NCBI RefSeq assembly: GCF_000003605.2
Contig: NW_003140819.1
Location: forward strand, 73,576-109,940
Origin: Saccoglossus kowalevskii
Taxonomy: Eukaryota; Hemichordata; Enteropneusta; Harrimaniidae
DNA length: 36,365 bases
Direction: 5' to 3'
Of this stretch, positions 7,929 to 35,820 are shown one piece after another. The notes below the pieces were generated by a model. It was not told the origin of the DNA and did not search any database. It saw only the letters and a list, made by a program, of their open reading frames with translations. Both the position numbers and the translations under genes were made by a program. The number at the start of each line of letters is the position of its first letter. Positions within the stretch are counted from its first letter, which is position 1.

Positions 7929-8735
7929 CTATGACTTTAAAGCCGGTTTTAAAAATACTCTTTGACTGAAAGACTGTTTTGGAATTATACTATCATAATG
8001 GCTGAAAGGCTGTTTTGAAATTATACTATGGCTGAAAGGCTGTTTTGAAATTATACTATGGCTGAAAGGCTGTTTTGGAATTATACTATGGCTGAAAGGC
8101 TGTTTTGAAATTATACTATGGCTGAAAGGCTGTTTTGAAATTATACTATGGCTGAAAGGCTGTTTTGAAATTATACTATCATGGCTGAAGGGCTGTTTTG
8201 AAATTATACTATGGCTGAAAAGCTGTTTTGGAATTATACTATAGCTGAAAGGCTGTTTTGGAATTATACTATGGCTGAAAGACTGTTTTGAAATTATACT
8301 ATGACTGAGAGTTTTTTTCAAAGTGTAGTATTGCTGCAAGGCTGTTTTGAAATTATACTATGGCCGAAAGGCTGTTTTGAAATTATACTATGGCTGAAAG
8401 GCTGTTTTGGAATTACACTATGGCTGAAAGGCTGTTTTGAAATTATACTATGGCTGAAAGGCTGTTTTGGAATTATACTATCATAATGACTGAAGGGCAG
8501 TTTTGAAATTATACTATGGCTGAAAGGCTGTTTTGGAATTATACTATGACTGAAAGACTGTTTTGAAATTATACTATCATGGCTGAAGGGCTGTTTTGAA
8601 ATTATACTATGGCTGAAAAGCTGTTTTGGAATTATACTATAGCTGAAAGGCTGTTTTGGAATTATACTATAGCTGAAAGACTGTTTTGAAATTATACTAT
8701 GACTGAGAGGTTTTTTTCAAAGTGTAGTATTGCTG
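7929..8735. repeat. 30-bp minisatellite, about 25 units
   Basis: The unit is GGCTGAAAGGCTGTTTTGAA plus ATTATACTAT. As 30 is a multiple of three, several frames stay open and encode 10-residue repeats such as HSIISKQPFS on the minus strand. These are artefacts of the period. Blocks 8177-8330 and 8576-8730 match unit for unit, about 399 bp apart. Confidence 0.93.
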
Positions 8736-17900: not shown

Positions 17901-20884
17901 ACGCGTTATGCGTGAAATCGAACGTAAATACAGGACAAACAAATTGCGTCAAACATCGCGTGGGGTTTGACAAACGCGAAAATATTTTAAGGGATTATAT
18001 TTCCATGCTTACTAACGTGCTGTACACATTTGATGATGGGCAATTTCGATGAAGTAAAGGTATTCAAACGCAATATTCCCCTGTCAAAGATCGGCCTTTC
18101 CATGTGAGCTACGAAATAAAGAAATTCGAGTTCAAAATCAAATCGTTCGATTTTTGCGGCAGACGTTCGACGCGTGTCTTTCATGCATCTCGCGCGATCT
18201 CGCAATTGTACGGAAAATCACCTATTGTGGGATATGTATGTAGGAGTAACAACAGTTTTAGTTTGGTGCGCCCTCTCTAAATCTGCCGCTGTTTATAAAT
18301 GAACAAACTTGATCTCAATGACAAATAAATAAAATTGAACTGAGAAAGTGACTAGCCAAGACTAAGATTAGATCAAAGGATGGTGTTGTCAATTAGAGTA
18401 AAGCGGGGAATATGTCACGTTTTTGCATTTTTTTTTATTACTCATAAACAAAAAAATACAGCGTGTTGTTGTTTATAAACAGGCGTCTACCCATGAGTCT
18501 TTGCGTTTTCAGCGCGCGTTGTTATCGTCGATTGGGACACATAGATACATTTGGGACACATAGATAGATTAGGTGTCGAAAATAATAATCCTGTGATCGG
18601 GTAGATTAGATTTGATTGAACCAAGACTAAGATTAGATTGAGCTAAGCTGAGCTAAATTAATCAAATTTAACCTAAACATGTAAATCTAACGTTGAGTAT
18701 AATTTTCACTGTTTTTACTTAAAGCGGGAGGGCCGTCACCTGCGCACGCGCGGGAATTGAGTCCCAAGCGACGATAACAACACACACTAAAAACGCAAAG
18801 GTTCATGGATGGATGCTTGTTTGTAAACAATGACACGCTATGGCCATCTGACGCATGCGCAGGTGACGACTCCCCCGCTTTAATTTCTGTTTTGCTTATC
18901 TGTTTAAATGTGACCAGANNNNNNNNNNNNNNNNNNNNNNNNNNNNNNNNNNNNNNNNNNNNNNNNNNNNNNNNNNNNNNNNNNNNNNNNNNNNNNNNNN
19001 NNNNNNNNNNNNNNNNNNNNNNNNNNNNNNNNNNAAGCATATGGGAAATCCCTCACAAAGCAGCGATGCGCGGTAAAGATAAGAAGTTACACGCAGACGC
19101 CATATGGGCGTACACCTCTCGGGCTCTTATCACGGTGTTTTGATACACTGTTAGCTGCAGTGAGGCGAACGCACGTCAGAAATATACACGCCTACCTACG
19201 CTGTTTTTATTGGTTGTTAATATCACTGCGCGTCACTGCTCTATAATGATTTATTCACTTGACGCGCACCAGCAACATACACGCTTACCTACGCTGTTTT
19301 TATTGGTTGTTAATATCACTGCGCGTCACTGCTCTATAATGATTTATTCACTTGACGCGCACCAGCAATATACACGCTTACCTACGCTGTTTTTATTGGT
19401 TGTTAATATCACTGCGCGTCACTGCTCTATAATGATTTATTCACTTGACGCGCACCAGCAATATACACGCTTACCTACGCTGTTTTTATTGGTTGTTAAT
19501 ATCACTGCGCGTCACTGCTCTATAATGATTTATTCACTTGACGCGCACCAGCAATATACACGCTTACCTACGCTGTTTTTATTGGTTGTTAATATCACTG
19601 CGCGTCACTGCTCTATAATGATTTATTCACTTGACGCGCACCAGCAATATACACGCTATACTGTCAGCTGTTGTAATGTATACCATGTTATTGACAGGTC
19701 CGAGCGGAATAGAAACTGATGTTGATATACCTGATTACGTAGCGCACAGTCCAGGTGATTTAGAAGCTGCGGCAAATTCTGCTTCCATGGAAACCAATGG
19801 CAAATATGAAGAGGATTACGGGTATGGGGATACGCCGCAAAACAACGCCCTCTATAATAACCATTTGATAGGGCAAACGACAGGTTACAATTCAAAGTTT
19901 CCTACAACCAATCATCAAACAGGAAATAGTAACAATGGTTATGGTCAAGGTTCACCACGACATGGTAGTCATAACAACCAGCACGGTTTTAACAATTATG
20001 GTCATCGGCAAAATGCACAGCAAAATCCCGATTACAATAACGCATTGTCAAATCATCAACAAGGTTACAATAATGCATTGCCCAATCATCAACAAGGTTA
20101 CAATAACGCATTGCCCAATCAACAACAAGGTTACAATAATGCATTGTCAAATCATCAACAAGGTTACAATAATGCATTGCCCAATCAACAACAAGGTTAC
20201 AATAATGCATTGCCCAATCAACAACAAGGTTACAATAATGCATTGCCCAATCAACAACAAGGTTACAATAATGCATTGCCCAATCAACAACAAGGTTACA
20301 ATAATGCATTGTCAAATCATCAACAAGGTTACAATAATGGTTACAATAGTCCTTTATCACAAAATGGAGGACGGGAAAACAGCGACAATTACAATGCATT
20401 TTCACGTCAACAAGGCAGAAATGGCGTACATCAGAATAATTTTCAAAGCAGTGGCGCTCTCAATAGCAATTATAATAATGGATTACCAGGTCAGCAACTG
20501 AATGGTGACCATGGTATCAACAATCCAAGCTTATCTCAATACGAACAAAGAAATAGCACCCCCAACAGCACTGAACAAGTCAATCATCCACTGGGTGGCC
20601 TAGATCAGGCTAACAGCGCCACCAAAGTTGGTAACCAGGAACAAGATTATACTAACAATGGTGAAGGTCAAAGTTCACAAGTTTTTAACATACAAGATTA
20701 TCATGCAAATTTGGCTGACTCTCCGAACGCTGTCGACACTGGAGAAGAAAATGACGAAATTCAATTAATTGAGGAAAATGAACCAGTTTATCACCCCGAC
20801 AACAATCCCGGAAATGTAGCAGGAATGAATTCTGTCATGAATTCCGATACAGATAATGGAAATGCCTTTATAGACGACTACTAG
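14889..20884 (+). CDS. Secreted cysteine-module plus Asn/Gln-rich repeat protein, four exons (unrecognised family)
   Basis: Exons join as 14889-14966, 16061-16165, 17047-17548 and 19698-20884. All introns are GT-AG and phases match (0, 0, 1), giving 1872 nt and 623 residues. Residues 1-19 are a signal peptide (hydrophobic core ILVIPIVLIIC, probable cleavage after VSVA). The exon 1/2 junction creates RTKR, a furin-type site. Exon 2 holds four cysteines (C-x5-C-x5-C-x12-C), the only cysteines after the signal peptide. Exon 3 is rich in Asp, Asn and Tyr. Exon 4 is rich in Asn, Gln, Gly and Tyr, has nine 11-residue repeats, two NST sequons and an acidic tail ending DDY. I see no tryptophan and no transmembrane segment after the signal. 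The architecture suggests a secreted matrix, adhesive or mineral-associated protein, or an unusual precursor, but this is inference. The start has G at -3. 5' UTR exons and the poly(A) site were not identified. Confidence 0.85.
14997..15435. repeat. Dispersed A/T-rich repeat, copy 2 (intron 1)
   Basis: Shares AATACCCAGAATTT, AAGGCAATATAAAGATATTG, CATATATTGTTAATGATGAA and TGTGTTCTATGGAATT with copy 1, with several deletions. It begins about 30 bp after the exon 1 donor. Confidence 0.75.
16061..16165 (+). CDS. Exon 2: four-cysteine module
   Basis: The exon is 105 nt, phase 0 to 0, with acceptor TATTTTCAG and donor GTAAGT. It encodes 35 residues. The cysteines are at exon positions 5, 11, 17 and 30, and a CLSDYDC motif recalls the CxxDxDC start of Dickkopf, WAP or EB-type modules. 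Only four cysteines are present, so it is not a complete copy of any of those domains. Because it is symmetric and flanked by phase-0 introns, it is an exon-shufflable cassette. Confidence 0.82.
16700..16988. mobile_element. TTAA-flanked MITE, family 1, in intron 2 of the secreted-protein gene
   Basis: The 289-bp element starts TTAAAGGGAGGTGGTCGTCG and ends ACGACCATCGCCTTTTAA. It shares the ATATAAACAAAGATGGCG interior with the copy at 1176. It ends 58 bp before exon 3, inside the region where branch point and acceptor must lie. Confidence 0.88.
17047..17548 (+). CDS. Exon 3: acidic Asp/Asn/Tyr-rich segment
   Basis: The exon is 502 nt, with acceptor GTTCAG at 17041-17046 and donor GTGAGA at 17549, leaving phase 1. 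It encodes 167 residues plus one base of a split Gly codon. The sequence is strongly acidic, with clusters such as NYDYYENINNN, HGDDDDVNG and NDYDESVF, and has no cysteine. Reading on past the donor hits a stop at 17607, which supports the splice. Its long clean frame and acidic bias match exon 4. Confidence 0.85.
18395..18545. mobile_element. TTAA-type MITE family 2, diverged partial copy
   Basis: Recognisable by AGTAAAGCGGGGAATATGTC and GTTTATAAACAGGCGTCTAC, followed by CATGAGTCTTTGCGTTTTCA. The right inverted end is missing. Confidence 0.7.
18719..18883. mobile_element. TTAA-flanked MITE, family 2
   Basis: The 165-bp element starts TTAAAGCGGGAGGGCCGTCA and ends GACGACTCCCCCGCTTTAA. The interior has TTGTTTGTAAACAATGAC and GACGCATGCGCAGG. 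It lies in intron 3, just before the assembly gap. Confidence 0.88.
18919..19034. other. Assembly gap (116 N)
   Basis: A run of unknown bases in intron 3, between a TTAA MITE and the 93-bp array. The true length is unknown. The repeat array may be collapsed or extended here. Confidence 0.99.
19182..19657. repeat. 93-bp tandem repeat, about 5.1 units, in intron 3
   Basis: Units start ATATACACGCTTACCTACGC and are almost identical; the first unit(s) differ by single C/T changes. Exact 93-bp spacing is seen at 19201, 19294, 19387, 19480 and 19573. The array stops 40 bp before the exon 4 acceptor at 19697. The period keeps an open frame (19210-19719) with a 31-residue repeat, but that frame differs from exon 4. 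Confidence 0.93.
19698..20884 (+). CDS. Exon 4: Asn/Gln/Gly/Tyr-rich repeat region and acidic C-terminus
   Basis: Acceptor TTGACAG ends at 19697. The first two bases GT complete the Gly codon started in exon 3. The exon encodes 394 further residues and ends at TAG 20882-20884. It contains the 11-residue tandem array at 20039-20335, then a non-repetitive Asn/Ser/Gln-rich stretch. The last part is acidic (DTGEENDEIQLIEENEP). The composition resembles prion-like low-complexity or structural secreted proteins. Confidence 0.85.
20039..20335 (+). repeat. Nine coding 33-bp repeats (NALPNQQQGYN)
   Basis: Nine consecutive in-frame units of 33 bp encode NAL(S/P)N(H/Q)QQGYN. Two main variants occur, NALSNHQQGYN (units 1, 4, 9) and NALPNQQQGYN (units 3, 5-8), with a hybrid as unit 2. 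Units are nearly identical at the DNA level, which points to recent expansion or homogenisation. There are no dibasic sites between units, so this is unlike a classical neuropeptide precursor. Confidence 0.95.
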
Positions 20885-25903: not shown

Positions 25904-26044
25904 TTATTGATTCTCCAACCACTCTTGAACTTGCTCAAAGTTGTTGTCCATCCATTTGATATTGGCTTTGGTGCTCTCGATGGCTTGTTCATACGCTCTT
26001 GCCGCAGACCCGAGGTTAGGATGATTGTCACCGAAATCAATCAA
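25904..26044 (-). CDS. Terminal exon of aminopeptidase
   Basis: The exon is 141 nt including the TAA stop at 25904-25906, after acceptor TTGTTTCAG. It starts in phase 0 and encodes 46 residues beginning LIDFGDNHPNLGSAARAYEQ and ending EWLENQ. The TKANIKWMDNN block is the near-universal C-terminal signature of this peptidase group. Confidence 0.95.
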   Translation of the reverse strand: MIDFGDNHPNLGSAARAYEQAIESTKANIKWMDNNFEQVQEWLENQ

Positions 26045-29000
26045 CTGAAACAAAAAAACAAAAACAAAGACACATGTATAAGTCAGAGAAAATCATGGTT
26101 CAAGTCAACAAGATGCTGTCTATTATGGTGAGACTTGTACAAAAAGGGTTGTGGGCGCACGTACGGGTTAGTGTGCGCATGTGAGTATCCATGGTAACGT
26201 ACTGAGGTCATGAAGACAGCGAATCAGTGATAACACAGAATTCTGTGACGTCTATGTTATTTACATAGCGATTCCAGACCAACCTTGAGTGTTAGGATTG
26301 GGGCTAGAATTAAACTCACCACATTACCATGAATCCCTATCACCATAAAAAAGGTTTATGATTAAATATTTTTTCCAATAGAAAATTATGTTTGTTTGGT
26401 CTGAAATTATTAAATAAATTATAGAAAAAATGAATAGATATAAGCAAAATATTACACTAAAATCTGGTTTATATTATCTACTAGTACTGTCTGTAGTTGT
26501 ACAAACTGTAGATCGCTCCACTTTCGCTGTTAGCGAGTTTTCGCGATTCAATGACATTCATTTCACGAAAGTCGTCTCGTAGGAACTCAGAGAAATTTTC
26601 ACTGCTACCAAATTCATCTCTCGTGAAATTAATAGAGTTTTTTTTTGCGAAATTTAAGCGGTTTTGTGTTTCTACTATTCTTATGTTTTTTGATTGGTCT
26701 CCACTGACATGAAACACGCAAAACAAATTTAATTACATGGCGAAAAACAGCATAACAATTGATCCTACACCAAAAAACAGTTTTGTTGTGTTAAATTTTT
26801 TTTTCAGCTTGTCTGTAAACATGTACCAACAGCAAGCATAATAACACCACATGATAAATACTACTGTGAAATACTTTAATTTAGCTGGAATTGATTTTGG
26901 TGTTTCGTATGAAATTTATTTTCACTGATTTTTGCGAACTGAATGTAAAATATAGAAAAAAAGGTACTGTGAAATAATTTATTTTCACTGGAATTAATTT
27001 TCGCTGAAAAGACTTTTTTGGGTATTTTTCATGGAATTTATTTTCACTGATTTTTGGTGAGTTGAATGTAAAATATAGGAAAAAAGGTATATTCGCTGAA
27101 TTTTATTTTCACTGAATCATCCCTTCAGGAAAAATAGCGAAAATTAATTCCAAGCGAAAATAAAGTTTTTACAGTATGTAAAATCAAAGTAAGTAAACCT
27201 ATATTGCGTGCGTGACTGATTTCGTGAAGATCTTCAAAACGAAATCGCGAAAATTTGACTGCTGGTAAGTGACTTGTGAAGGTACAGAGTGAAATGTTGT
27301 GGCCCCAGATTTCCATCGTTTACACTTATTTTTTTTTTTTATGAAATGTGAATTTCATTTTACAGAATTACAAATTTTTAAACTGCAGTAAAGCTAAGAA
27401 GAAAAATATCTGTTCCTCATTTCCGCACGCATCATTTTGAACTATGCGCCCCAGACCTTTTTTTCCCTTCTAAAGCATTCCAAAAAGCTCTTGTACTTGC
27501 ACTTGTTTCAAATTTCCCCCATTTTAGCTCGGTATTCAAAAAAAAAAAAAAAAAAAATCGCCTCACGATTTTGAAATTTACATGAAACGAGAAACAGAGA
27601 ATTTTTTTTTCCTGGCCTAAGATAATATTGCTAACAACCATATATGGCGATTCGCTGGCGTAATAAAATGCCGGGAACGTTTGAAAACTTATTGTGTTAC
27701 TGAATACACCTCAGTATGGTAATGCAAGATTTTCTGTTGCGTCAACGAATAATTTACGTTTGTCAATTACCTGTCAGAACGACTTGGAGGACAGACTTAC
27801 TGCCAGTAGTCTTTTCTTATCAATGTTATTTAATTAATATATTTAAATAGACGTCCATGCCACTGTATTAAAAATGCCAATTTGATCGCCCAAAGACAGG
27901 ACAACAAGGTTCTCATACAAATAATTCCTTCAAAACTCTGACAGCCAAGATCTGTTTATTCCGCCATCATTATTCTATTCAGAGGATGTCTTCTGAAGTG
28001 CGCCCTCTATGGCAACTTGAAGTCCCACCATTTTGTTTTACATTCATTGCCATACGCTAGGGCAGCTCTGATTGGACGAATGTCTTAGAGGCGCTTCCAA
28101 TCAGATCTGTTTATTTCAGTTATGTGTGACCTCTTGGTTTAATCACACGCAAGTACGTTAGGAGGGGGAGGGTACATGTTTACATTGAGTGCCTGAAACA
28201 GTTTCTGATTGTACAAATATAAAGTACCAAATCAATTGCAGAAGTTATTTTCATGATTCAGTGAAAATAAAAACCAGCAAATATAATTTATTTCCTATAT
28301 TTTACATTCAACTCATTAAAATCAGTGAAAATAAATTCCATAGAAAACACCCAAAAGTCTTTTCAGCGAAAATTAATTCCAGCTAATATAAATTATTTCT
28401 CAGTATTTTGATCATGAAACTTTGACCTGTACATAAAAATCCATAAAAGATTTTGCTGTGTATTAAATTTATTTTCACTGATTTTGACGAGTTGAATGTA
28501 AAATATAAGAAAAAGAGTATATTCTCTTGATTTGATTTTCACTGAATCATACCTTCAGCAAAAATAGTGAAAATTATTTCCAAGCAAAAATGAAGTATTT
28601 TACAGTGTTTTACAGTGAGTCGGGCGTGATCCAGAAAATTATTTCTCTGATGTGAGGGCGCACTTCCCGTAGCGTTACAAGGCTGGGCAATACGAGCTAC
28701 GTGATAAATACGATTCCTGATGCTGCATGTTATGTATTACCAGGTCAGCATTATGATTCACTAAACATCAGTCAAGCAAGTGATTAACACCGAATAAACC
28801 GCATGGTAAATACTTTGTCATATTATAGTAAATATTTACTGGGAACTTGATTCGAACCAACGTTTGTGTATGGCACCAGATCGTCTAACTTCACAGCACG
28901 TCACGTCTTCCCCTCGGCCACCGATCAGGCGATGCTACGGGCTCACTATTCAATATTCACTAAATATCAGTCAAGCAAGTAAATAACACTTAATAAACGC

Positions 29001-32000
29001 CATGGTAAAATCTATGTCAAATTATAGTAAACATGTGCTGTGTGCTTGATTCAAACCAACATTTACATGCAGTGCCTAATTGCCTAACTTCTCGTCATGG
29101 CACGTCTTCCCCTCGGCCACCGATCAGTCAATTTGTCGGGCTCACTACTCGATATTCCTTCATACATACTTTTACAATACTATGATTACTCATTTTAAAA
29201 TATACATAGACCAAACTGTTCTAAAAGAGAACTAAGTTATAACTCCAAAACAAAGACAAAGTGCATATTTTAACATGCACATACCGTAGTTAGTAACTAA
29301 GACAATATGCACAGTAACTATGACAACATTGCTTGTAATTATGACAATATGCATATAGTTGGTAACCAAGACGACAAGCCCAAAGTTAACTAAGATGACG
29401 AGCACTTGGTCAGTAACTATGACATGCACGTAGTTTGTAACTATGACAACATGCATATATTCGGTAACTAGGTAACTAAGGCGTCATGCACCAAGACAAT
29501 TACATAGTTGGTATCAATGACGACAAGCACTTTAGTCAGTAACTATGACGTGCACATATTCAGTAACTATGACAACATGCGCATAGTTGGTAGCTAATGC
29601 AACATGCAGGTAGTTGGTAACTATGACAATGTGCACGTGGCTGGTAACTATGACGACATGCATGGTGGAGTATACCTGTGAGAGCTCAAATCGTGTGTTT
29701 AACTGAGACGTCAGCGCCGTCAACATTCTACTCCATGTGAATAAACTAGTACCAAACCTGGAAAGAAGGCAATCACATGATACAAATCAACCAATCACTC
29801 TTGAGATTCATTATGACCATATATGGACATACTGTTGTCAATATTACCTTATATGGCCATTATAGCAAATATACAATATATTGGTATATGAACATGTTTG
29901 CCATATATGGACAGGTTACCATTATTAACCTTATATGGGCATAATGGTAATTGTACCATATATGGGCATGACATGTTTACACACCATATAAGGAGATACT
30001 TGTGACAGCATATTACCATATATGGGCATGACATGTTTAAACACCATATAAGGAGATACTGGTGACAGCATATTTCCATATATGGGCACCATTACCAAAT
30101 ATGTACATACATACCTGTTGCAAATCGAATTCTGTATTCATTTGGTCAGTAACAGCGGTCAGCAGGCGAGCAAACGTAAAAGAACCGCTACCGTACCTAT
30201 GACAACCAAGGGTTAGTCATGCAAGCAAGAACACAATAAACAGAACAGGTTAAAAAGCGGTGGTCGTCGCGCCATGCATTCGCGAGAAGTTTGGACTACT
30301 TTGGATGTTGTGCAGATCAATGAGTACAAAACTGAGCGTTGCTTTAACTACGTAATTTGTTCGATGATTGGAAGGTATCGAAGAAGTCATCGGCAGTAAT
30401 TAGTGCAAGTAGTTCCAGGTTCAAAACTAGTACTGTAAAATCTGTATTAAAAGCCGCGGCTTCTATCAAAATGATACAATGCAACAGAGGGATGCGGCTT
30501 CTATTAGAGCATCTACACATATGAGAAATGGTGAATTTTTGGTTCTCAATTGTTCAAAAAGAATGGGTGCGTCTTCTATTTAAGAATGCGGCTTCTAATA
30601 CAGATTGTACGATACTTGTGATTTTCATTAGAAGAGCGCATTGGATTGTGGGAAAATCAATTTTTATCAACACGAATATCGCACATACACGGCACGACGA
30701 CCACCAGACATGCAACTTTGTGTTTCCCAAAGGATTCATAAATATGATTATCCCTTTTAAGTGCCATTGTCAATTTTTGACACTATCTACAAAATGGATT
30801 TGTATCGTTCGCTCCTCTCCACGTTAATTGTTTTGACAAAAGTTTTGATTAGAAACTAAAAATAATATCTGAAACTGTCTATATGGTCCAAAATGACGAT
30901 AAAATTTAGTCATAGTCATAAAATTTTACAAAATGTGAAAATATTTGCACAGAATTGTGAGTGAAAAAAAAAAAATATCTGGCACTCAAAAAATTATTCG
31001 AAACGTTAAAGAAGTAAAGTAAAAAAGTTATTCAGTTTAGAAAAACACATCTCTGAAAAAAAAAATCATGCTAGGCACAAATTTTGTTTACATAATTAAC
31101 GAAGAAATTAAAAAAAAAAATACATTAACTCATGCAGAATGTTGCAATCAAATTTCAGCGGGAAAAATGAGGTAAGAAAAAAAAAGGTAAGAAAGTATAC
31201 AGAAAAAATGTTTGGAAAAACATCTTTATAAAAAATATACATGCCAGACACAGTCCACATTTACATTATCAATAAAACATATTAATTTAAGAAACATATA
31301 TTATGAAATGGCAAGCAACATCAGATTTACAGACATAAACACATTTTATCATTATTGATATCATATAGGTTTTTATGCATGATCCCAAAGGTCACACTTC
31401 CTGGCACTTTGAGCTGTAAAGGTCACACATCCTGGCACTTTGACCTGTAAATCTTGGCACATATTACTGTAAAATACTTTTTGCTCTGAATTTATTTTTG
31501 CTATTTTCATTGAAGGAATGATTCAGTGTAAATAAAATCCAGCCAATATACCATATGTCTTATATTCAACTCTTTAAAAATCAGTGAAAATAAATTCCAT
31601 ACAAAATACCCAAAAGGTCTTTTCAGCGAAAATTAAATTTGGCTAAAATAAAGTATTTAATTATTGTTGTCCCATTAGCGCAAAATTATTCCTTCAGCAA
31701 AAATAGTGAAAATTAATTCCAAGCGAAAATAAAGTATTCTACAGTATTCCATAAACTTCTTTAAATTTGTTTATCATCGGCATACATATATATCATTGAA
31801 TTTTGTCCTCATAGAAAGTACCAGGATGTGTGACCTTTCATAAAGTACCAGGATGTGTGACCTTTCATAAAGTACCAGGATGTGTGACCTTTCATAAAGT
31901 ACCAGGATGAGTGACCTTTTATAAAGTACCAGGATGTGTGACATTTTATGTTAATACTTACATATCAAACAAGATGTCGTAGTTAGCTCTAAAAAAATCC

Positions 32001-35000
32001 CACGCTAGAGCTCTACCAACGTAGTTAGAGGCGACATATCGTATCGTGTACGAAGCATCCTGTTTTCTGATCTTGGTGGAATCAATGGAATACTCTAAGT
32101 ATCTGTTGATAATGAAAATAATAATAATATGGTTCTAGAAGGTTAATAAGGTTTATAATCAGGTCAGAAATGTTAATAAGCTTTATAATCAGGTCCTAGA
32201 AGGTTAATAAGGTTTATAATCAGGTCAGGAATGTTAAGGTTTATAATCAGGTTCTAGAAGGTTAATAAGGTTTATAATCAGGTCAGGAATGTTGATAAGG
32301 TGTATAATCAGGTCCTAGAAGGTTAATAAGGTTTCTAATCAGGTCAGGAATGTTAATAAGATTTATAATCAGGTTCTAGAAGGTTAATAAGGTCTATAAA
32401 CAGGTCAGGAATGTTGATAAGGTTTATAATCAGGTCCTAGAAGGTTAATAAGGTTTATAATCAGGTCAGGAATGTTAATAAGGTTTATAATCAGGTTCTA
32501 GAAGGTTAATAAGGTTTATAATCAAGTCAGGAATGTTAAGAAGGTTTATAATCAGGTCCTAGAAGGTTCATAAGCTTTATAATCAGGTTCTAGAAGGTTA
32601 ATAAGGTTTATAATCAGGTTCTAGAAGGTTAATAAGGTTTATAATCATGTTAGGAAGGTTAATAAGGTTTATAATCAGACCAGGAAGATAAAGAGGTTTA
32701 TAATCAGGTCCTAGAAGATTAATAAGGCTTATAATCAGGTTCTAGAATGTTAATAAGGTTTAATATTAGATTCAAGAAGGTTAATAATGTTTGTATATGA
32801 ATAAAATTATAGATTTTATTACTTGTTCAGTATTAAAGTGGGGGAGTATTAAATAATCAGGTCCTAAAAGGTTAATTGGGTTTAAAATCAGGTTCTAGAA
32901 GGTAAATAATGTTTATATAAGAATAAAACCATAAATATAGTACTTGTTCAGAGTGAAAAAAAAAAGGGGGGGGGGGGGTATAAAATATAACCAGGTCCAA
33001 GAAGGTTAATAAGGTTTATAATCAAGGGCTAGTAGATTAATAAGGTTTATATATAGTTGTTGTTCAGGTTTAAAGCAGAGGAGTCGTCCCCTGCGGACAC
33101 GATAGGTAGCCATAGCGTGTTGTTGTTTACAAACAAGCATCTACCCATGAGCCTTTGCGTTTTTAGCATTAGTTCTTATCATGTGTGCCCTTCGTCTTAA
33201 CACCACATTCTGGTAACACAATACCTGTACTGTAAAATACTTTATTTTAGCTGGAATTAATTTTTGCTGAAGAGACTTTTTCGGTGTTTTGTATGGAATT
33301 TATTTTCACTGATTTTTGACGAGTTGAATGAAAAAAGGTATATTCCCTGGATTTTATTTTCATTGAATCATTCCTTCAGCGAAAATATTGAAAATTAATT
33401 TCAAACGAAAATAAAGTATTTTACAGTATTTGGTAACCCTGGCGACAATACCTGCTTAATATCCATGGCACGTTACTACAAGCCATCGATGACTGCAATC
33501 GTGACTTTTCACCGGCGTCACTTTCTTGTTGGTAACGCTCCCACATGAAATCCCACTCTTTGACGCCACCGTGTCGTATACCATTGCAATACACGAGGGA
33601 CTTCAAATTAGGGGTGATGCTGTAAATAGAAAAGAAGATTACGCACTATAAAATGAGTGATAATGTACTATAAAAATACTACTGTAAAGGGGTTAATTAT
33701 TCACTGGGTTTTAATTTTGCTTATTTGGCTGACTGGAAAATGCGCTAAATAAAACCCAGTGAATATGTAAAATTTAGCATAGAACACATTATCTAAATGA
33801 TAAAACCGTGAATTTAAAACCCACTGAAATGGTAAATCAACGAAATATAAACCCAGTGAAAATTAGTCATTTGACAGTATTAGTCAGAAGAATGCTGTTG
33901 ACCTTTAACATGTTGACCTTTAACCTTTGAATGCCAAATTCAACTTTTTTCACCTATCACAAATCCATGCAGCATATTTTTTTTTCAGATTTTTTTTTTC
34001 AAAATTAAGAACAGAGCTAGTCAATTTGAATATGGACAACAATGTCAAATGATATTCAGCCCAAATTACAACCATAAGTTGAATTCAAACTTGAACATAA
34101 CAAGTGAATTATGTGGGTAAAATGAAAAAAAATGAAGGAAAAAAAGTGTATTCTGTATATGACTTTTACCATCTAGCCTCCCAGGTGGAAATAGTTGTTT
34201 GGACACCAAAATTGAAATTGGCAAAGTCAAACATTACTAAGAATCTTTCAAAAGATAAGGAGTTACCGGGGTAGCGGTTATCATGATAAGTTTATTTCTG
34301 TGCAGACAGAAGTCAACTTATGTCACAATTTTTAAACCCACATAAATTTTTTCATAATTTTTCAAAAATGTTGAGCAATATATTATTATTTATACTAAAA
34401 TATGTTATTCATAGTTTTAATATATTTTTTAGGTCAACTATGTGGAGTCATTAAAAATTTGACTGAAAAAAAAATTTTTTGTCAAAAAATAAACCTGCAT
34501 AAATTTGTTTCCTATTTTTTTCAAAAATTTCTAGACCTAATTATTTTGATATTATAAGATTTAACCTTTTGAACTTTTGAACTTTTGAACTTCAAAGTCT
34601 AATTTCATCATCATTTACAATTGTTTTAAAACAATTATTTTTTTCATAATTTTTCAAAAATTTTGATGAAGACTTGTAGCCAAAAGGAAATTATGTCCAT
34701 TTGGGTCCAAAATTATCTCAAAAAAAAATAGAAAGATATAAAAACTAAAAAAATACATTGTTGTATTTCAATCACCCTTTCACCGAAATGTGGGATTTAC
34801 CAAAAACTGTTAAGATGAATATGAAATTCTGTGTGTAAACACATAAGTAACAAGCAGCTTCTCGGCTGAGATAGCTTCCCTGTTAGCAATGCACAATTCA
34901 ATTAAAGAACTGAAGATATCATTAGAAAATGAACAATATGTATAGTACACTGTATCAAAGCAATCAGACTTGCTGTTTTCAACAAGAATTCGAAAAAACT

Positions 35001-35820
35001 ATAACTTTTTACCAAAAATATTCATCAAAATTAGAGAATTGAAGATATCATCATGAAACCTAAAATAGGTCTACCCAAAGTACATATACACCAAGTATCA
35101 AAGCATTCAGGCTTGTAGTTTTCAAGAAAAAGTCGAAAAAGTAAAACATTGACACGACGACAGACGGCGACGATGAACAATCACTCATATGATAAGCACA
35201 AAATAGTCCTGTTTATAGTCTGCACTTTTCTTCACAAGACTGGGCCAAGAATAGCCAAAGTTTTTGAGTAAAAACTGAAAATTTACTCAAATTTTGTTTG
35301 TTGTCTCCAAAATTAGGGTTTATTTCCAGAAATATAGAATAATATAAGACAAGCAGCCTATCGGCTGAGATAGCTCCGCTGTTAGCAATGCACATTTCAA
35401 TTAAAGAACTGAAGATATCATTAGAAAATGAACAATATGTATAGTAATAAAGCAATCAGACTTGAAAATATCACTTTTTACCAAAAATTGCAAAAATATT
35501 CACCAAAAATAGAGAATTTGAGATTTTGACATGAAATGAACAAATCTGAAAAAGAACCATCCAAGGTACTTGCATATCAAATTTGAAAACATTCTGACTT
35601 GCTGCTTTGAAAAAGAAGTTGAAATTGTAAAGTTGACGACGACGGACGACGACGACGACGGACAATCAGAAATATGAACAGTAATAAAAAAGTGCAGACT
35701 AATACTCACGCATTAGCAACAGGATCCTGCATCCACAAGTCAAACTGTTGTACAGCCTCATCGATGCAAGGTTTGTAACCATAGCGACATGCAGTGCTCA
35801 ACACATTGGCACGATGGAAA
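25904..35820 (-). CDS. M1-family aminopeptidase (aminopeptidase N-like), C-terminal part, gene runs off the right edge
   Basis: Minus-strand exons are 35820-35710, 33619-33452, 32102-31962, then alternative 30196-30115 (A) or 29757-29676 (B), and 26044-25904 ending in TAA. Every intron is GT-AG and phases agree, giving 213 residues plus stop. Family hallmarks of the ERAP1_C-type domain are clear: PNLKSLVYCNGIRHGG, EWDFMWERYQ, ACSNVPWILSRYLEYS, IRKQDASYTIRYVASN, YDILFDMYGSGSF and the tail TKANIKWMDNN followed by EWLENQ. These align by eye, from knowledge of the family, with vertebrate aminopeptidase N. Family members remove N-terminal residues from peptides as zinc enzymes, often as type II ectoenzymes. 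The HEXXH zinc site and N-terminus lie outside the window, so activity and membrane anchoring cannot be confirmed. Confidence 0.95.
26045..26861. other. Intron before terminal aminopeptidase exon: possible old inverted-repeat element
   Basis: 26480-26700 reads like a non-coding transposon made of TTCACGAAA, TTTTCGCGATT and GCGAAATTTAAGC phrases, which keep a minus-strand frame open. No exon signals. Confidence 0.4.
26862..27176. mobile_element. TA-flanked MITE, CTGTAAAATACTTT family, with internal duplication
   Basis: It begins TACTGTGAAATACTTTAAT and ends TTTTTACAGTA. The left half is present twice (26862-26957 and 26963 onward), so one copy is truncated or nested in another. It lies in the last aminopeptidase intron. 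Confidence 0.8.
27177..28243. other. Aminopeptidase intron, no exon seen
   Basis: A/T tracts at 27330 and 27540-27556, and a GCGCCCTCTA motif near 28000. I found no further exon needed: the protein alignment is continuous across this intron. Confidence 0.5.
28244..28620. mobile_element. Inverted pair of CTGTAAAATACTTT-family MITE fragments
   Basis: 28244-28410 is a reverse-orientation copy (ATGATTCAGTGAAAATAAA to AATTCCAGC) and 28455-28620 a forward copy ending GTATTTTACAGTG. Together they form a large imperfect inverted repeat. Confidence 0.75.
28757..29157 (-). mobile_element. Tandem dimer of a tRNA-derived SINE
   Basis: Two direct copies about 199 bp apart on the minus strand each start near GTGAGCCCG. 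Each carries an A-box-like GGTGGCCGAGGGG (28910-28922, 29109-29121) and a B box, GGTTCGAATC in the 28.85-kb copy and GGTTTGAATC in the 29.05-kb copy. Box spacing fits a class II (Leu/Ser-like) tRNA ancestor. Each has the same A/T-rich tail. Confidence 0.75.
29271..29665 (-). repeat. About 34-bp degenerate tandem array rich in TGCATG, downstream of exon B
   Basis: The repeat core on the plus strand is GTAACTATGACAACATGCA with variants. On the transcript (minus) strand it supplies TGCATG at 29657-29662, 29603-29608, 29485-29490, 29450-29455, 29423-29428 and 29274-29279, plus GCATG at 29576-29580. The first lies 14 nt after the exon B 5' splice site. Confidence 0.85.
29676..29757 (-). CDS. Alternative exon B of aminopeptidase (duplicate of exon A)
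   Basis: The exon is 82 nt, with acceptor TTTCCAG and donor GTATAC. It encodes FGTSLFTWSRMLTAL through TRFELSQ, 27 residues. It is identical to exon A at 14 of 27 positions by my count, with the same length and phase. It has no stop and good splice sites, so it looks functional rather than decayed. It loses the Gly-rich YGSGS start of exon A. Confidence 0.85.
29817..30085. repeat. Nine CArG-type elements CC(A/T)6GG between the alternative exons
   Basis: Perfect CC(A/T)6GG decamers start at 29817, 29847, 29901, 29929, 29956, 29984, 30016, 30044 and 30076, spaced mostly 27-32 bp. Forms are CCATATATGG (palindrome), CCTTATATGG and its complement CCATATAAGG. The last four belong to a 60-bp tandem duplication. 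The array fills most of the 357-bp intron between exons A and B. Confidence 0.9.
30115..30196 (-). CDS. Alternative exon A of aminopeptidase
   Basis: The exon is 82 nt, with donor GTATGT and acceptor GTCATAG. It encodes 27 residues starting YGSGSFTFARLLTAV and ending TEFDLQQ. It matches the family consensus at this position better than exon B does. A TGCATG motif lies 22 nt upstream on the transcript strand (30218-30223). Confidence 0.9.
30250..30760. mobile_element. TTAA-flanked MITE (family 1), with nested insertion
   Basis: The left end is TTAAAAAGCGGTGGTCGTCG. The right inverted end GGCACGACGACCACC is at about 30690-30705, and a further TTAA lies at 30757-30760. The element is interrupted at about 30429-30608 by another inverted-repeat element whose ends read ATCTGTATTAAAAGCCGC and GCGGCTTCTAATACAGAT. 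It lies just upstream of alternative exon A. Confidence 0.75.
30761..31387. other. Aminopeptidase intron, A/T-rich, no exon seen
   Basis: Remnants of the dispersed repeat of 23.9 kb (ATCTGAAACTGTCTATATGG). Otherwise poly-A/T-rich. Confidence 0.5.
31388..31458. repeat. Two to three copies of AAAGGTCACACATCCTGGCA repeat (inverted relative to 31810-31946)
   Basis: Short tandem copies of AAAGGTCACA plus CTTCCTGGCACTTT or ACATCCTGGCACTTT occur here. They are the reverse complement of the 27-bp array at 31810-31946, making an inverted pair around the MITE at 31465-31746. Confidence 0.8.
31465..31746. mobile_element. TA-flanked MITE, CTGTAAAATACTTT family
   Basis: Termini are TACTGTAAAATACTTT and AAAGTATTCTACAGTA. 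The interior is long-palindromic with motifs such as CAGTGAAAATAAATTCCAT. It has the same family as 33228-33428, with an internal interruption around 31660-31690. Confidence 0.85.
31810..31946. repeat. 27-bp tandem repeat, about five units
   Basis: The unit is AAGTACCAGGATGTGTGACC followed by TTTCATA. It ends about 16 bp from the 5' splice site of the aminopeptidase exon 31962-32102, inside the downstream intron. Each unit contains an AGGTCA half-site on the other strand. Confidence 0.9.
31962..32102 (-). CDS. Aminopeptidase exon with IRKQD motif
   Basis: The exon is 141 nt, with acceptor CAACAG and a strong donor GTAAGT. It encodes 46 whole codons, YLEYSIDSTKIRKQDASY to ANYDILFD, and ends with AT. 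Those two bases join the G that begins either exon A or exon B to form a Met codon, so both downstream choices keep the frame. Confidence 0.95.
32132..33060. repeat. About 31-bp minisatellite filling an aminopeptidase intron
   Basis: Units read GGTTAATAAGGTTTATAATC then AGGTTCTAGAA or AGGTCAGGAAT. The two tail types alternate over much of the array, giving an approximately 60-bp higher-order unit. Copies become degenerate after about 32780. The intron between exons 33452 and 32102 is mostly this array. Confidence 0.9.
33070..33190. mobile_element. TTAA-type MITE family 2, right-truncated copy
   Basis: It starts TTAAAGCAGAGGAGTCGTCC and contains TGTTTACAAACAAGCATCTA and CATGAGCCTTTGCGTTTTTA. 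It then breaks off. Confidence 0.75.
33228..33428. mobile_element. TA-flanked MITE, CTGTAAAATACTTT family, most complete copy
   Basis: The 201-bp element starts TACTGTAAAATACTTTATTT and ends with the complementary AAATAAAGTATTTTACAGTA. It is a foldback element with TA at both ends, consistent with Tc1/mariner-like target choice. No coding capacity. Confidence 0.88.
33452..33619 (-). CDS. Aminopeptidase exon with VYCNG / EWDFMWERY motifs
   Basis: The exon is 168 nt, with acceptor TTTACAG and donor GTATTG. It encodes 55 whole codons from ITPNLKSLVYCNGIRHGG to SSMACSNVPWILS, then AG of a split Arg codon. The motifs VYCN, EWDF-W and ACS---WIL are strongly conserved in the aminopeptidase N group. 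Confidence 0.95.
33680..33879. mobile_element. Foldback MITE with TACTGT / ACAGTA ends
   Basis: It starts TACTGTAAAGGGGTTAATTA and ends CATTTGACAGTA. Inner arms carry CACTGGGTTTTAATTTTG and its complement AAACCCAGTGAAAATTAG. It is a different family from CTGTAAAATACTTT despite the shared CTGTAAA tip. Confidence 0.75.
33880..34845. other. Aminopeptidase intron, A/T-rich, no exon seen
   Basis: Short GACCTTTAAC and GAACTTTTGAACTTTTGAAC runs (33900 and 34570) and long A/T tracts. Nothing coding. Confidence 0.5.
34846..35700. repeat. Two direct copies of an approximately 350-bp repeat ending in GAC-rich tract
   Basis: Copies start at 34846 and 35347 (CGGCTGAGATAGCT, TGTTAGCAATGCACA, TTAAAGAACTGAAGATATCA). 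Both run to a GACGAC-rich tract followed by GACAATCA or GAACAATCA (about 35150-35190 and 35634-35670). The second copy ends next to the donor of exon 35710-35820. A related GACAGAC tract is at 21130-21165. Confidence 0.7.
35710..35820 (-). CDS. Aminopeptidase exon (first in window)
   Basis: The exon is 111 nt, with acceptor TTTTCAG and donor GTGAGT. After one base completing an earlier codon it encodes 36 residues, FHRANVLSTACRYGYK through MQDPVAN, and ends with two bases of an Ala codon. It corresponds to the helical ERAP1_C segment before the PNLKSLVYC motif. Confidence 0.92.

Follow-up and report, generated by a model that had tools for sequence, protein, structure and literature searches.

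Why does an aminopeptidase gene of Saccoglossus kowalevskii carry, close to its 3' end, two neighboring and homologous exons of exactly the same length, and are both meant to enter the same mRNA? The gene lies on the minus strand of the window, by which we mean the whole stretch of 36,365 nucleotides analyzed here (C3168:73576-109940 in a genome assembly of 572 Mb); the gene encodes an M1 aminopeptidase, and the stretch covers its 3' end. Judged from the sequence, the two exons, A and B, are tandem duplicates in an aminopeptidase N (APN)-like gene and most probably mutually exclusive, with one of them per mature mRNA. We assign this reading a probability of roughly 80%; the pair is known from one assembly and one gene copy.

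The first exon of the gene in the window is the constant coding exon E1 (35710..35820, minus strand, as are all exons described here), which was recognized by APN homology and whose acceptor was inferred from an AG together with that homology; further exons are located upstream of the window. Splice sites and APN homology define the constant coding exons E2 (33452..33619) and E3 (31962..32102), and the donor of E3 splits a codon after two bases. They are followed by the alternative exon A (30115..30196; 82 nt, YGSGSFTFARLLTAVTDQMNTEFDLQQ), an intron of 357 nt (29758..30114), the alternative exon B (29676..29757; 82 nt, FGTSLFTWSRMLTALTSQLNTRFELSQ), which is a derived copy, and the constant last coding exon (25904..26044), which ends in the stop codon TAA. 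All printed splice sites of the gene are GT or AG. A 61-nt unit, tandemly repeated in 11 copies (window 32124-32792), ends about 20 nt before E3.

The spliced C-terminal piece comprises 213 residues with A and likewise with B. It matches the Pfam family ERAP1_C (PF11838) with 192.6 bits when A is used and 188.9 bits when B takes its place, a cost of 3.7 bits, the cut-off being 38.2. Among solved structures it is most similar to chains that carry the name aminopeptidase N (E 5.5e-62 for the version with A, 2e-58 for that with B), which we take to be mammalian and whose family label is presumably MEROPS M1. Both results bear out the earlier note, which had called the gene aminopeptidase N-like.

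On its contig, the gene extends upstream beyond the window. At about C3168:124.5 kb, one exon on the same strand encodes both AAGAMENWG and VSHELAHQ, i.e., the GAMEN exopeptidase and HEXXH zinc motifs, and matches Pfam PF01433 with 73.4 bits; more exon-like matches to paralogues occur near 125.1 and 126.1 kb. Strand, order, and family suggest that the window gene is continuous with the GAMEN/HELAH exon, the contig being partly unreadable between the two. A second zinc-ligand glutamate following HEXXH was not found in the readable part of the contig, some of which is unreadable. Where readable, the gene looks otherwise intact. The 661-nt A-B region was found at one place in the genome by a search in which very frequent words are passed over; within that search, neither a further allele nor a segmental copy at another place turned up.

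The frame relations of the two exons are the main argument for their exclusive use. A and B each measure 82 nt, are bounded by GT-AG, are entered in phase 2 and left in phase 0, and contribute one base plus 27 codons to the frame, so that the coordinates, lengths, and phases claimed for them in the earlier note are correct. Joining E3 to the last exon via A or via B gives, in both cases, a frame that is open to the same TAA. Double inclusion (E3+A+B) reads ...QQVWY*, with the stop at nt 10-12 of B, and omission of both exons (E3+last) reads ...FDI* (Asp-Ile-stop), exactly the V-W-Y-stop and the I followed by a stop that had been predicted. Nonsense-mediated decay (NMD) usually requires a stop that lies at least 50-55 nt before the last junction. 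Since the stop of the A+B product is located 70 nt ahead of that junction, this mRNA is expected to be an NMD target. The stop of the skip product lies inside the last exon, and this mRNA would therefore yield a truncated protein and not be cleared by NMD. The claim that only one-or-the-other use makes protein thus stands for full-length protein, which the single inclusions alone encode, but not for protein of any kind, given the truncated skip product. Tandem exon duplication and frame incompatibility, the two features from which mutual exclusion had been proposed, both hold at the level of the sequence. In the mechanism that we propose, each mature mRNA would carry A or B, never both, and A+B splicing mistakes would be removed by NMD.

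What the two exons encode can be read from the solved structures. In the printed alignments with APN chains, the query aligns gap-free through the exon segment. For 9cam_B, a chain of 967 residues, the residue number equals the query number plus 750; this offset agrees with the human motif Y891GGGSFSF898 as given in the available text of PMC6222927, and the exon therefore corresponds to human APN 891-917. The same text presents APN 891-898 as a flexible domain IV loop whose Phe896 caps the S1 pocket and perhaps serves as its gatekeeper; according to it, S1 specificity is influenced by cap residues of the C-terminal domain (PMC6222927). The final columns of Table 5 in this paper, which we took to list the cap residues, contain S895, F896, and S897 for APN, E865, S868, and S869 for ERAP1, Y892 and R895 for ERAP2, and P957 and Y961 for IRAP (PMC6222927). 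A docking study, in the part available, equates IRAP Tyr961 with ERAP1 Ser869 and ERAP2 Arg895 and explains inhibitor selectivity by this position (PMC11874008).

The start of the exon coincides with the start of the 891-898 loop. The placement of the exon swap within the C-terminal helical domain, as put forward in the earlier note, is therefore supported and can be made more precise: the segment starts with the loop of domain IV that forms the S1 cap. In A the loop reads Y-G-S-G-S-F-T-F and in B F-G-T-S-L-F-T-W, with Gly892, Phe896, and Thr897 in common and five of the eight positions (891, 893, 894, 895, and 898) different. The other 8 of the 13 differences between A and B fall into the helix after the loop and include a change from Glu to Arg at human position 912. 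In our best reading, the splice choice would swap the S1-capping loop (human Y891-F898) together with this helix. The two isoforms would have a common catalytic machinery and would differ either in their P1 preference or in cap rate and closure. Because Phe896, the named APN cap residue, is unchanged between A and B, the effect on specificity is possibly modest.

The identity of Phe896 in A and B also suits a different explanation, in which the exons are mutually exclusive and the swap serves a purpose other than S1 specificity, for instance folding, stability, or contacts in a dimer or with a partner, by way of the post-loop helix. This would account for the differences that lie beyond 898, including the charge reversal at 912, but leaves aside the five changes within the loop and the coincidence of the exon boundary with the loop start. 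We regard it as somewhat unlikely and continue to favor a swap of the S1-cap loop together with the helix behind it.

If only one of the two exons is used, something has to enforce the choice. Steric exclusion operates in introns of up to about 50-60 nt; an A-B intron too short for the spliceosome was ruled out by its length of 357 nt. Incompatibility of U2- and U12-type sites was likewise rejected, no U12-type donor being present among the printed sites when these were compared by eye with the U12 consensus. RNA structure offers a candidate enforcer. The A-B intron contains many CC(A/T)6GG palindromes and has a strong predicted self-fold of -116.4 kcal/mol, where 100 shuffled versions average -88.1 (z -5.15), and the donor of A is paired in the local fold model (unpaired 0.05 vs. 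a mean of 0.33). According to such a model, an intron hairpin between A and B would hide the donor of A and thereby enforce the choice.

Several observations argue against this hairpin model. Among the 85 fold windows along the gene region, two are as stable or more, one overlapping the A-B intron and the other lying elsewhere. The predicted fold is built of tandem palindromic repeats, which are stable by themselves: the intron holds 9 of the 11 CC(A/T)6GG palindromes of the window (five CCATATATGG and four CCATATAAGG or CCTTATATGG), in part within a 60-nt tandem repeat (29954-30088), and these palindromes may explain the fold without selection. The motif CC(A/T)6GG fits what we take to be the CArG box consensus. 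Pairing of the A-B intron with the preceding intron was matched by 13 of 30 shuffles, pairing with the first 1500 nt of the following intron by 1 of 30, and pairing of the two outer introns with each other by 14 of 30. Hence, no docking/selector pairing stood out in the three intron pairs tested, two of which comprised only parts of long introns. Altogether, we consider it unlikely that this hairpin enforces the choice between A and B.

The intron between B and the last exon contains, at window 28756-29157, two copies of a 199-nt unit that are 79% alike. With its GGTGGCCGAGGGG and GGTTCGAATC-like stretches, this unit looks to us like a tRNA-derived SINE, an assignment that we treat as an assumption. 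ARAGORN called no tRNA, and no Rfam family was found at gathering score. Elsewhere in the window, a 420-codon open frame on the plus strand (19622-20884) is rich in QQGYNNALPN repeats and has no Pfam match, and the tandem repeats at 7929-8716 read as SHSIISKQPF-like peptides and perhaps represent a non-coding satellite. Pfam searches with eight other open reading frames of the window gave no match above the cut-off and two below it. A mitochondrial-looking locus on contig C4830 (L032) has a COX1 match with seven TGA codons read through, and in its frame taken for ND1, two serine-like positions are occupied by AGA and lysine-like ones by AAA; this codon use fits an invertebrate-type code and would speak against vertebrates as well as echinoderms.

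Whether B has been maintained was addressed by comparing it with A. The two exons are identical at 45 of 82 nt and, on recomputation, at 14 of 27 residues, the figure that the earlier note had given for two homologous 27-residue segments. Within the 81 codon bases A and B differ at 37 sites, of which 11, 8, and 18 belong to codon positions 1, 2, and 3, respectively. Third codon positions agree in 9 of 27 cases, where composition alone leads one to expect 6.8, and the NG86 method gave a dN of 0.44 with dS not computable. In the 40-nt flanks, 13 positions before the exon and 11 after it are identical, which is near chance, and the similarity between A and B thus ends at the splice sites. With both third positions and flanks near chance, it is the protein, not the DNA, that was kept. 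Of 200,000 sequences derived from A by 37 random changes, 30% were stop-free, a fraction of 4.5e-5 kept at least 14 residues, and 2.5e-5 were in addition stop-free.

Profile searches point in the same direction. Using an HMM built from A alone on all six frames of the window, we detected, besides A, only B as significant (E 1.1e-7; next match 0.72). An HMM built from two APN segments of solved structures recognized A with 3.3e-9 and B with only 0.54, which shows that B alone is derived and weak. A has 16/27 and 14/27 residues in common with the two APN segments, B 11/27 and 8/27, and when each exon was searched together with short stretches of the constant exons, the top match among solved structures was 2.3e-7 for A and 1.4e-4 for B. 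B is thus a homologue of A that has been kept for its protein, with A nearer to vertebrate APN. A third copy of the exon was not found in the window with an HMM of A, B, and the two APN segments (best other match E 0.2), nor were duplicates of the other exons of the gene, each constant exon matching the window once at E up to 1.

The donor of A matches the consensus at 8/9 positions and that of B at 6/9, as do the donors of E1 and E2, and the pyrimidine tract is better in B (13/17) than in A (11/17). A weaker donor with a better tract in B, and the reverse in A, would suit two competing exons and proves nothing. That B is a relic, either a duplicate that splicing now ignores or a poison exon lowering expression when joined to A, would be in line with its weaker donor, with the decay geometry of the A+B stop, and with the 30% of random versions that remain stop-free, but is very improbable in view of a protein sequence kept despite near-random third positions and eroded flanks, a frame kept in register with that of A, for which a poison exon has no need, and two GT-AG splice sites combined with a tract that beats that of A.

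The pair A and B can also be set against the paralogues. M1 genes are numerous in this genome, with at least 48 exon-level matches to PF11838 and at least 69 to PF01433, both counts being lower bounds for repeats and large families. The catalytic-domain matches are partly clustered, on C3168 at about 124.5, 178-182, 213-217, and 249-252 kb, and many lie on C3160. An exon at the equivalent place was located in 13 fetched paralogues, with the same phases in all 13. According to the script calls it measures 73 nt and runs from phase 2 to phase 0 in 12 of them; in the thirteenth, the script took an inner AG (61 nt), and an upstream AG also gives 73 nt. An HMM scan of the fetched stretches revealed one plausible copy of the exon per paralogue (13/13). 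Both neighboring exons were located, with all bases readable between them, in only 4 of the 13, and in the remaining ones the stretch covered on at least one side was at most 3 kb long (in one case 119 nt), two of them with unreadable bases. Two of the 13 paralogues encode the same exon peptide and hence are not independent.

A 10.6-bit match in L021, antisense to the gene and resembling one in L016, was taken for a repeat, and a weak candidate exon in the neighbor gene on the same contig was left out of the paralogue count. Two further C3168 stretches, largely or wholly unreadable, gave no match. The single copy at the same place and with the same phases indicates that the exon boundary is old and that the duplication is peculiar to the window gene among those seen.

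The pair itself is probably old as well, since the divergence between A and B (14/27 residues in common) is about that between A and the two APN chains (16/27 and 14/27). It could then be common to a wide group of invertebrates and have been lost in vertebrates. Together with the idea that one APN gene gives rise, via a mutually exclusive S1-cap-loop exon, to two enzymes differing in S1 specificity or cap dynamics, this forms a wider proposal, which we place slightly below even odds. The site of the proposed swap, the S1-cap loop, is what gives the locus its above-average interest. If the loop is swapped by splicing, nature would provide two enzymes that are identical except for 27 residues, a comparison that makes the function of the S1 cap directly testable, and tissues could tune peptide trimming without a new gene. 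Vertebrate M1 aminopeptidases of different S1 specificity are separate genes, with loop residues among those that differ.

Mutually exclusive tandem-duplicated exons are known from Dscam and many other genes. A and B resemble such exons in their adjacency, homology, equal length and phase, and in the frame clash that arises when they are combined. They differ in that the gene is an M1 aminopeptidase and in that exclusion is deduced here purely from sequence. Human sets of tandem or mutually exclusive exons are presented in PMC5740500 and PMC9741552, and the terms aminopeptidase, ANPEP, ERAP, and peptidase are absent from the main texts of these two papers. In the open-access literature, screened by title and the opening lines of the abstract, we found no description of an aminopeptidase with mutually exclusive or duplicated exons. 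This agrees with the earlier note, which knew of no account of such a switch at this position in the M1 family, and is not proof of absence. The gene would give a known kind of splicing a new instance, aminopeptidase N, and it is possible that both isoforms are already annotated.

Compared with vertebrate aminopeptidase N (ANPEP/CD13), the window gene aligns throughout its C-terminal part, has GAMEN and HELAH upstream, and is gap-free over residues 891-917, whereas the second copy of the 891-917 exon may set it apart. Splice diversity in APN genes is a feature that it would have in common with the APN isoforms of Helicoverpa armigera; in the available text on the latter, however, new splice patterns are possibly linked to circular RNA and the term 'mutually exclusive' refers to Dscam only (PMC6722899). 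ERAP1, ERAP2, and IRAP have differing S1 residues in the same table columns as APN 895-897 (PMC6222927), and, as far as the available part of the docking study goes, inhibitor selectivity depends on differing S1 residues (PMC11874008). In these three enzymes the variation lies between genes, whereas in the window gene it would lie between exons.
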